A stretch of DNA of 64,000 nucleotides from Flammeovirga kamogawensis (GTDB lineage Bacteria; Bacteroidota; Bacteroidia; Cytophagales; Flammeovirgaceae): contig NZ_CP076128.1 of assembly GCF_018736065.1 (NCBI RefSeq), positions 4,279,001 through 4,343,000 on the forward strand. Direction: 5' to 3'. Under the pieces are notes generated by a model, which saw only the letters and a program-made list of their open reading frames with translations, was not told the origin of the DNA and did not search any database. The position numbers and the translations under genes are program-made. Below are positions 61,223 through 64,000 of this stretch, piece after piece (positions within the stretch are counted from its first letter, which is position 1; each line of letters begins with the position of its first letter).

Positions 61223-62686
61223 CTAAAAATAATAACTGAAATATCTATGAGAGCCATCTTCTTTTACAATTTCTAAGATTACTCGCCCTCTTATTCTTGA
61301 GAGAATTTTGTTAAAGTCTTTTGGGTTTTCTAAAGGGTATCGATTAAGAGAAACGAGTATCATTCCTTTTCTTAAGCGCATTTCTTGAATTAAACCACCT
61401 TTAACAACTTCTTCAATTCTAATTCCTGTTTTTAAACCAAGTTTCGATTTTTCAAGTTTTGAAAGTGCCGTAAATTTAGCACCGATTTCTTTAGCATCGT
61501 AAACTTTTTTATTTAATACGTTAGTTGTTCCATCAATGTTTGTTAAAACAACTGTTTTGTTTAAATATTTTTGATTTCTTAAAATTTTAATATCAATCTT
61601 ATCTCCTGGAACATAATAACTAAGCTGTTCATCAAAAGCTGCTTCAGAGTCAATAGAGAAATTATCGATAGCTAGAATAACATCTCCTACTTGAAGTTTA
61701 TTTTTTTCTGCTGCACCTCCCTCAATCTTTGTGATAGCAACTCCTTGAATTTCTTTCATTTTTAATTCCTCAGCAATATCTTCATCAACAGCTTTAATAG
61801 CTGCACCAAGAAATGCTTTCTGTACTTCACCATATTTTTTGAGGTCGTTAACTATTTTGGCAACAATATCAGAAGGAACAGCAAATCCATAACCTGCATA
61901 ACTACCTGTTTTAGAAAGGATAGCAGTATTAATACCTACTAAATCACCGTGTAAATTAACCAATGCACCACCACTATTACCTGGATTAATAGCTGCATCT
62001 GTCTGAATAAAAGATTCAATAGGAAAGACATCATTCATAATGCCAATTTTACGCCCTTTAGCACTTACAATACCTGCTGTAACTGTACTAGTAAGATTAA
62101 ATGGATTACCAACAGCTAGAACCCAATCTCCAACTCTTACAGCTTTTGAAGATGCTATTTGAATTGGTGGTAAACCCTCTTTTTGAATTTTTAGTAAAGC
62201 AATGTCTGTAGATTTATCAACGCCAATTAATTTAGCATTATATGATCTTTTATTATAGATGACTTCAATTTTATCGGCCCCTTTTATAACATGATTGTTG
62301 GTTACAATGTATCCATCCTCGGTAAAAATAACTCCCGAACCTGACCCAACAGCTACACCAGATGAATTACTTTGCGAGGGGCGTCCAAAAAATAGGTCAC
62401 TCCATGTTTTTCTGTTACTATATCTATTATTCATATAAGTGACTATATAGACTACAGATTTGGTACTTACTTCGGCAGCATCAGCAAAAGCAGAGAGTTT
62501 TAAATCTTCAGAAGATGGTAATTTCTCAAAATTAGAATTACCATAAATAGGAGTAGTGTTTGTTGTTGTATTAGAAGCAAAATTAAATGTTTCTGTATTA
62601 GTTGGTGATAGGAATTTGCCATACAGATAAGCTCCACATAAACCACTTATTACTCCAATAATTATTGTAAGTAGAGTACGTTTCAT
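61223..62686 (-). CDS. HtrA/DegP-like serine protease with PDZ
   Basis: The 487-residue protein has an N-terminal signal or anchor (about 4-22) and a trypsin-like domain (about 65-280) with triad His132, Asp161 and Ser238 (PGNSGGAL). A PDZ domain follows (about 295-385: FLGAAIKAVDEDIAEELKMK, then VGDVILAIDNFSID). A second PDZ-like part is at the C-terminus, partly degenerate. It degrades or refolds damaged envelope proteins. It is 48 bases downstream of the DeoC-like gene. Confidence 0.92.
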   Translation of the reverse strand: MKRTLLTIIIGVISGLCGAYLYGKFLSPTNTETFNFASNTTTNTTPIYGNSNFEKLPSSEDLKLSAFADAAEVSTKSVVYIVTYMNNRYSNRKTWSDLFFGRPSQSNSSGVAVGSGSGVIFTEDGYIVTNNHVIKGADKIEVIYNKRSYNAKLIGVDKSTDIALLKIQKEGLPPIQIASSKAVRVGDWVLAVGNPFNLTSTVTAGIVSAKGRKIGIMNDVFPIESFIQTDAAINPGNSGGALVNLHGDLVGINTAILSKTGSYAGYGFAVPSDIVAKIVNDLKKYGEVQKAFLGAAIKAVDEDIAEELKMKEIQGVAITKIEGGAAEKNKLQVGDVILAIDNFSIDSEAAFDEQLSYYVPGDKIDIKILRNQKYLNKTVVLTNIDGTTNVLNKKVYDAKEIGAKFTALSKLEKSKLGLKTGIRIEEVVKGGLIQEMRLRKGMILVSLNRYPLENPKDFNKILSRIRGRVILEIVKEDGSHRYFSYYF

Positions 62687-62734
62687 TTTTATTTTTTTTG
62701 AGTTAATTAATCAAGAAAAGTGCCTTAGTATTAA

Positions 62735-63361
62735 TTATGACACATTGACATCTGGATTGATCTGATCGTAGGTTATGTTGACAGTTTGGAAATTTTCAAA
62801 CAGCGTTTCAGTTAATAAGTTAGTGTCATAAATGTGTATTTGTTTTTCAATATCAGAAGATAAATTTTGGTTTATATTATCCATATAGATTAAATGCTCT
62901 TGGTGGATAAACAGTGTATCTACACCAGCTTTATTAGCAAGGGAGCAAATTTCAATTATTTCTGAATTTGTGAAATCAATTGGAGGAAGTTTTAATGTAA
63001 AAAGTACTTCGTCTTTATGTGCAGTTTGAGCTAGTTGCAAGCATTCTATTTTGCACCAAGTAGGATTGGTTCTAAAAGCCCCAACATTAAGAACGGAAGC
63101 TACTTCATTTACTCCTAGTTTTATGAGTTGTTGTAACTCAAAGAGTTTAACTTGAGTGAGTTGATTTCCATTTCCTTCTCCAATACAAGATTGAATTATT
63201 AAGTCTGAACCATGGAGATCTCTGCAAACTTTTTTTACCCAATAGCCTGGTATAGACACTCCTTTCAGAGGAAGGTGTAATCCTAGATCAATTAATTTGA
63301 TTACATCTTCTTCTGAAGAGTATGGGTTTGAAATTTCCGCGATTAAGTGCGTAAATTGCAT
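62735..63361 (-). CDS. DeoC-like TIM-barrel protein lacking catalytic lysines
   Basis: The 208-residue protein resembles deoxyribose-phosphate aldolase along much of its length: VSIPGYWVKKVCRDLHGSDL, VKLFELQQLIKLGVNEVASV, then LNVGAFRTNP and IIEICSLANKAGVDTLFI. The residues needed for catalysis are missing. The Asp of the E-V-D motif is Ala88, and the Schiff-base lysine of the KTSTG loop falls on about Phe151 with no TSTG. The GFKPAGG lysine region is absent because the protein ends early. It is therefore likely a non-aldolase relative. It overlaps pdxJ by one base (TAATG), which implies translational coupling. Function unknown. Confidence 0.7.
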   Translation of the reverse strand: MQFTHLIAEISNPYSSEEDVIKLIDLGLHLPLKGVSIPGYWVKKVCRDLHGSDLIIQSCIGEGNGNQLTQVKLFELQQLIKLGVNEVASVLNVGAFRTNPTWCKIECLQLAQTAHKDEVLFTLKLPPIDFTNSEIIEICSLANKAGVDTLFIHQEHLIYMDNINQNLSSDIEKQIHIYDTNLLTETLFENFQTVNITYDQINPDVNVS

Positions 63362-64000
63362 TATGAGAGTTGTTTAAGGTACATTTGGATTGTATTTTCT
63401 AATCCAAAATAGAGTGCGTCACATACTAAAGCATGTCCAATTGATACTTCATCTAAACCTTTAATATTTTGATGAAAATACGCTAAATTCTCTAAATCTA
63501 AATCGTGACCAGCGTTTAAACCTAAACCTAATTCTTTTGCTTTTGCAGCAGCAGTAATATAAGGAGCAATAGCTTTCTCTCTATCAATAGAATAGTTTGC
63601 TGCATAAGGCTCAGTATATAATTCAACTCGGTCAGCACCAACAGCAGCAGCACCCTCTACCATTTTAGGATCAGGATCAACAAAAATTGAAACGCGTATA
63701 CCGTCGGCTTTTAATTCTTTGATTACCTTAGTTAAAAAATCTTTATGTTTAATAGTATCCCAACCTGCATTAGAGGTAATAGCATCATCAGCATCTGGTA
63801 CAAGTGTAGCTTGTTCTGGAGTAACACTTTTAACTAATTCAATAAATCTAGGAGCTGGATTTCCTTCAATATTGTATTCTGTTGTTACCACAGGTTTTAG
63901 GTCTAAAGTATCTTGGTTTGTAATATGACGCTCGTCTGGACGAGGGTGAATAGTAATGCCTTGTGCACCAAAACGCTCACAATCCTTTGCAACTTGGACT
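63361..64000 (-). CDS. pdxJ: Pyridoxine 5'-phosphate synthase, 5' end outside the window
   Basis: The reading frame runs from the window end to the stop at 63361, about 213 residues of the usual 240, so only the start is missing. It reads VQVAKDCERFGAQGITIHPR and PDERHITNQDTLDL, then TTEYNIEGNPAPRFIELV, ATLVPDADDAITSNAGWD, and LGLNAGHDLDLENLAYF. These match PdxJ, including the conserved catalytic Glu and the His pair in HPRPDERH. It makes pyridoxine 5'-phosphate from 1-deoxyxylulose 5-phosphate. The downstream DeoC-like gene overlaps by one base. Confidence 0.95.
   Translation of the reverse strand, partial: VQVAKDCERFGAQGITIHPRPDERHITNQDTLDLKPVVTTEYNIEGNPAPRFIELVKSVTPEQATLVPDADDAITSNAGWDTIKHKDFLTKVIKELKADGIRVSIFVDPDPKMVEGAAAVGADRVELYTEPYAANYSIDREKAIAPYITAAAKAKELGLGLNAGHDLDLENLAYFHQNIKGLDEVSIGHALVCDALYFGLENTIQMYLKQLS

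Follow-up and report, generated by a model that had tools for sequence, protein, structure and literature searches.

In the other vitamin B6 pathway, the plant PLP synthase pseudoenzyme PDX1.2 is paralogous to the catalytic subunit and forms a heteromer with PDX1. Deoxyribose-phosphate aldolase (DeoC or DERA; TIGR00126, PF01791, EC 4.1.2.4) is described as using Lys167 as the Schiff-base lysine and Asp102 and Lys201 as a proton relay, with phosphate bound by Gly171, Lys172, Gly205, Gly236, Ser238 and Ser239 (PMC8403123). For the E. coli enzyme, K58, D82 and A95 have been placed at the dimer interface and helices 5-7 opposite to it (PMC4725968). The protein considered here, encoded in a window of 64,000 nucleotides from Flammeovirga kamogawensis, resembles DeoC in its whole-chain fold and by sequence homology over residues 14-148, but is devoid of the Schiff-base lysine and the catalytic aspartate (in all nine Flammeovirga orthologs), of the Lys201 equivalent (in seven of them) and of the phosphate-site residues. 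It resembles PDX1.2 (PMC6829848) in being a barrel relative without catalysis that is associated with vitamin B6 synthesis; the Flammeovirga protein is however related to DeoC rather than to PdxJ, and its B6 role is putative. Also close in kind are five DeoC homologs of other Bacteroidota (G010, G012, G015, G027 and G021), where the Schiff-base lysine has likewise been replaced in a DeoC-type chain, although four of them show less erosion than the Flammeovirga protein and their gene neighbours differ except in G010.

The gene occupies positions 62735..63361 on the minus strand and encodes 208 amino acids from an ATG start; its description as a DeoC-fold pseudoenzyme draws on the open reading frame, a weak deoC HMM match, an AlphaFold2 model, the match of this model to DeoC structures and the missing catalytic residues. 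The minus strand reads TAATG at 63359..63363, and the ATG of the DeoC-like gene and the stop of pdxJ thus have one base in common, as the preliminary description had proposed. Only the 3' part of pdxJ lies within the window (63361..64000, minus strand), as the gene continues past its end; the complete form, seen in locus L002, has 237 amino acids. PdxJ itself is ordinary, with the part in the window matching Pfam PF03740 at an E-value of 4.9e-79 and NCBIfam NF003626 at 303.6 bits (equivalog cut-off 222). Among the 37 same-strand neighbour pairs of the window (ATG open reading frames of at least 100 amino acids), this is the sole 1-base overlap, one other pair overlapping by 26 bases. The pdxJ and DeoC-like pair is present in all nine Flammeovirga genomes analysed, in each case with the 1-base overlap kept and the reading frame of the DeoC-like gene intact; an alignment-based scan of genome contigs yielded five named Flammeovirga records (F. 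aprica, F. pacifica and strains SJP92, EKP202 and OC4).

Homology to DeoC is evident over the front part of the chain. TIGR00126 matches residues 14-148 with an E-value of 2.4e-11 and 43.5 bits, under the curated cut-off of 117.3, and in sequence searches solved DeoC chains match residues 15-149 at about 1e-9. The Pfam search on the other hand returned no family at E<=1, and no curated family of Pfam or NCBIfam scores above its cut-off. An AlphaFold2 model, computed from six Flammeovirga sequences, has a pLDDT of 91.7, a pTM of 0.89 and eight strands in order; the solved structures closest to it are those of DeoC enzymes and of designed DeoC variants (Foldseek E-value of 4e-11), and VIA superposition on DeoC gave a Z-score of 25.7 with an rmsd of 2.0 A over 202 residues. 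Since the model matches DeoC over the whole chain, the back half, missed by the sequence searches, is still a predicted barrel, and the protein as a whole is predicted to be a complete DeoC-type (beta/alpha)8 barrel. The fold landmarks of DeoC claimed in the preliminary description are hence borne out by the family match, by the solved chains and by the predicted model alike.

The active site has fared differently. Aligned with E. coli DeoC (a sequence agreeing with PDB 1jcl), Asp102 corresponds to Ala88 (codon at 63098..63100, minus strand), Lys137 to Thr122, Lys167 to Phe151 (codon at 62909..62911, minus strand) and Lys201 to Gln174, while Gly205 is without an aligned partner and Ser238 falls on Asp204. 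The replacements vary across the nine Flammeovirga orthologs: the position of Lys167 is occupied by F, F, M, T, I, I, L, T and T, that of Asp102 by A, A, I, V, I, I, S, G and G, and Lys137 is likewise replaced in every ortholog with differences between species. Cys47, kept in one of the nine, is similarly inconstant, and a lysine at the position of Lys201 is retained in two and replaced in seven. As Lys167, Asp102 and Lys137 are replaced throughout and Lys201 in seven of nine, the protein is very unlikely to work as an aldolase through the DeoC mechanism. Thus, the assignments of the lost aspartate to Ala88 and of the Schiff-base lysine to about Phe151 hold, and the idea of a dead aldolase gains support from orthologs in which these positions are both emptied and unconserved; alignment places no reactive lysine in the active site. 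The proposed loss of the final lysine region stands for seven orthologs, this protein included, but not for the two that keep the lysine. A suggested ability to bind a phosphosugar finds no backing: in every one of the nine, Gly171, Lys172, Gly204/205, Gly236 and Ser238/239 have been either deleted or exchanged for other residues, making such binding at the old site unlikely and eliminating a phosphosugar-binding relic as an explanation.

The same genome encodes a canonical DeoC with all of these residues (TIGR00126 at 279.6 bits against the cut-off of 117.3), within a deo cluster located elsewhere and not near the DeoC-like gene. Its neighbours match models of pyrimidine-nucleoside phosphorylase, deoB (phosphopentomutase) and deoD, the deoD piece being cut off by the locus end. 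The aldolase reaction is therefore already covered. Canonical deoC and pdxA (G000:C1:938946-939563 and 943877-944749) are about 4.3 kb apart, with the pdxJ pair far away, an arrangement that may be a coincidence.

Despite its eroded site the gene is kept in use, as judged from dN/dS values of 0.05-0.30 in nine pairs, compared with 0.02-0.08 for pdxJ; a decaying gene is rejected on these values. Both halves of the gene remain below 0.33 in six pairs, the front half being the slower one in four of the six and not slower in two. Divergence is nonetheless fast, since in the three distant pairs compared the identity is 38-46% for the DeoC-like protein and 84-86% for PdxJ. Conservation is unevenly distributed along the chain: 33 of the 40 residues invariant in the nine Flammeovirga proteins reside in residues 1-118 and seven in residues 119-208, with the most conserved stretch at codons 31-118 (63008..63271, minus strand; 28 of the 40). 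The reverse pattern is displayed by 43 intact homologs, with a mean identity of 0.46 in the front half and 0.55 in the back half. Invariant positions include W41, K43, K44, K72, W102, K104, E106 and H115, and an acid (E or D) occupies the place of E. coli Thr18 in all nine. This distribution hints at the front half of the barrel as a protein-binding face.

The E. coli dimer contacts K58, D82 and A95 (PMC4725968) align with R47, L68 and K81, all invariant in the nine Flammeovirga proteins. E. coli Y96 aligns with a variable residue; PDB 5eky is by its title a K58E-Y96W mutant, and we infer that Y96 also falls within the DeoC dimer interface. With A95 at the two-fold axis and an invariant Lys81 in its place, an E. 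coli-type self-dimer is disfavoured, as the lysine would repel itself, which leaves room for another partner.

We then turn to relatives lacking the Schiff-base lysine, bearing in mind that the counts concern best-scoring or chosen DeoC matches rather than a random sample. The first set comprised 60 locus rows, three of which (L082, L085 and L096) repeat the genes of L028, L026 and L031, leaving 57 genes; the lysine is absent in 12, namely in the nine Flammeovirga orthologs and in G010, G012 and G015 of the same family. A second set of 20 hand-chosen regions, reduced to 19 by dropping L116 (a 67-amino-acid broken frame), added G027 and G021, from other families of the order. The substituting residue is serine in G010 and G012, leucine in G015, glutamine in G027 and cysteine in G021, and both G010 and G012 keep Asp102, Lys137 and Lys201. 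G045, G073, G060 and G034 retain the lysine in a site that is otherwise eroded in part. Together with the losses in the two further families, these make loss of the DeoC site look recurrent in the order, with Flammeovirga the most eroded among the cases read.

Flammeovirga is placed next to G015 in the tree of 58 rows, and G010 and G012 form a pair adjoining the intact G011 and G016. Free trees need two changes of lysine state; neither a single clade of all rows without the lysine (p-AU 0.108) nor, in a 35-row tree, one of the pdxJ-linked rows (p-AU 0.145) is rejected, and the history of the loss is unsure because long branches meet. Two further observations concern these relatives. Six partly eroded loci from other families of the order, L110 (G027), L115 (G021), L108, L109, L111 and L112, have Lys137 replaced by threonine in all six and an altered phosphate site, with Lys167 changed to glutamine or cysteine in two and Asp102 to glutamate or glutamine in five, and these residues suggest a probable wider set of non-aldolases. 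A DeoC match at G051:C101:5189-5629 contains two internal TGA codons and is probably a broken gene.

How far the attachment to pdxJ reaches was assessed from surveys covering 291, 291 and 395 genomes, with adjacency taken from loci among the matches listed. Outside Flammeovirga, a DeoC-like gene follows pdxJ in G010, another genus of the same family, at a distance of 124 bases. Eight of the nine other family genomes on the other hand have no DeoC relative less than about 1.5 kb from pdxJ, and none is found beside it in any of the 25 pdxJ loci taken from further families of the order, the pdxJ survey loci being those with the 30 highest scores among 265 genomes that have a pdxJ match. Viewed from the DeoC side, with about 1-1.5 kb inspected to each side and less at contig ends, pdxJ is matched in one (L029) of 51 DeoC loci and in none of a second set of 21 (L108 is in both sets). 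The link implied by the preliminary description consequently extends beyond one strain, to nine Flammeovirga genomes and G010, yet is confined to two genera among the genomes read; as a general rule for the family it is rejected by the eight genomes in which it is missing. The DeoC relatives of the sister genera G012 and G015 that have lost the lysine instead follow nth, which scores above its cut-off in both. Among intact homologs an nth link is rejected, as nth was matched in only two of the 51 DeoC loci (L023 and L030) and in none of the 21. At position 2172 of L134 (G015), the DeoC-like gene without the lysine begins with GTG and overlaps the nth stop by one base, which makes its product the second protein of this kind seen attached to a housekeeping gene unrelated to it. 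In E. coli K-12 MG1655 (L139, position 3499), pdxJ overlaps acpS by a single base, arranged just as in the Flammeovirga pair, and such coupling to pdxJ therefore need not mean a common pathway.

The reading we favour, and hold to be reasonably probable, is that of a DeoC-fold pseudoenzyme which purifying selection maintains for a role other than catalysis, most likely the binding of another protein. A Bacteroidota DeoC duplicate would have lost the aldolase chemistry, with the canonical DeoC of the deo cluster performing that reaction; that the protein has no aldolase activity is very likely judging from the residues lost. The full eight-stranded barrel would have been kept for the new task, and the protein is probably a binding protein, with strands and helices 2-4 in the front half as its presumed working face. 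Ribosomes ending pdxJ may reinitiate at the overlapping ATG, in which case the DeoC-like protein would be made in step with PdxJ, as is probably the case. Such coupled translation could also suit a protein dedicated to PdxJ as its partner or regulator, with both barrels joined in a fixed-ratio complex whose dead subunit adjusts or stabilises the synthesis of pyridoxine phosphate. The singular overlap in the window and its conservation in all nine genomes fit this proposal, as do the neighbouring pdxJ of G010, the single pdxJ-linked clade that the tree does not reject, and the precedent of PDX1.2, which is related to the other PLP synthase and has no catalytic function (PMC6829848). Weighing against it are the family and order genomes in which pdxJ has no DeoC relative alongside, the nth-linked relatives, the tree, where G010 pairs with nth-linked G012 and Flammeovirga with nth-linked G015 (long branches meet), the like overlap with acpS in E. 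coli, and the far slower evolution of PdxJ. A PdxJ role is thus not favoured, and PdxJ as the partner is rated as rather unlikely because the link was found in two genera only. The most far-reaching version we consider doubtful: that in Flammeovirga a dead aldolase was turned into a stoichiometric PdxJ subunit or regulator, a B6 control element derived from an unrelated metabolic barrel, and that more widely a Cytophagales DeoC branch repeatedly lost catalysis and gave rise to binding proteins attached to pdxJ and nth.

Other partners or tasks can be conceived for the same features. The protein may pair with the canonical DeoC, or with another DeoC relative, as its subunit or inhibitor in a mixed dimer formed through the ancestral dimer face, which would agree with a canonical DeoC encoded in the same genome and with invariant residues at the three positions aligned with E. 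coli contacts (PMC4725968). The DeoC-like gene is however not near the deo cluster, and two of the three invariant residues, L68 and K81, are of another type than their E. coli counterparts, leaving this an unlikely arrangement. Alternatively, the aldolase might be repurposed rather than dead, a new enzyme exploiting other barrel residues: the acid at the Thr18 place and the eight invariant tryptophan, lysine, glutamate and histidine residues listed above could contribute to such chemistry, but the residues at the former pocket positions (Asp102, Lys137, Lys167 and Cys47) vary from one species to the next and the phosphate site has been lost, and we regard this option as improbable too. That the gene is a decaying, functionless relic behind pdxJ would account for the rapid divergence and the lost catalytic residues; the low dN/dS, the reading frame and start overlap kept in all nine genomes, and the confident model of a complete barrel are at odds with this, rendering it very improbable.

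Among the papers listed in our search of 5.39 million open-access papers, with 12 of 27 matches listed in one case, none describes such a protein. Should PdxJ prove to be the partner, it would to our knowledge be the first PdxJ regulator of this kind. More generally, bacterial pseudoenzymes are easily overlooked because annotation provides either an enzyme name or no name. Relatives are at hand at several stages, comprising intact homologs, forms with the lysine lost and the aspartate kept, and Flammeovirga with the whole site lost, so that a single family allows the loss of catalysis to be followed while selection persists.

The next gene downstream encodes an HtrA/Do-type serine protease (61223..62686, minus strand; TIGR02037 at 393.4 bits, just under the cut-off of 416.2) and provides context for the pair; judged by first residues, an HtrA-like gene is the next long open reading frame in all nine Flammeovirga loci. 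Between the stop of the DeoC-like gene and this gene lies a GGCAC-N5-TTG element (62712..62724, minus strand) resembling the sigma54 consensus, and RpoN is encoded in the genome. The pattern as such occurs at chance level in the window, and what counts is its conserved place: one GGCA(C/T)-N5-TTG element is located at the same position in all nine Flammeovirga loci. This suggests that the htrA-type gene has its own promoter, with the putative sigma54-like element as the candidate.
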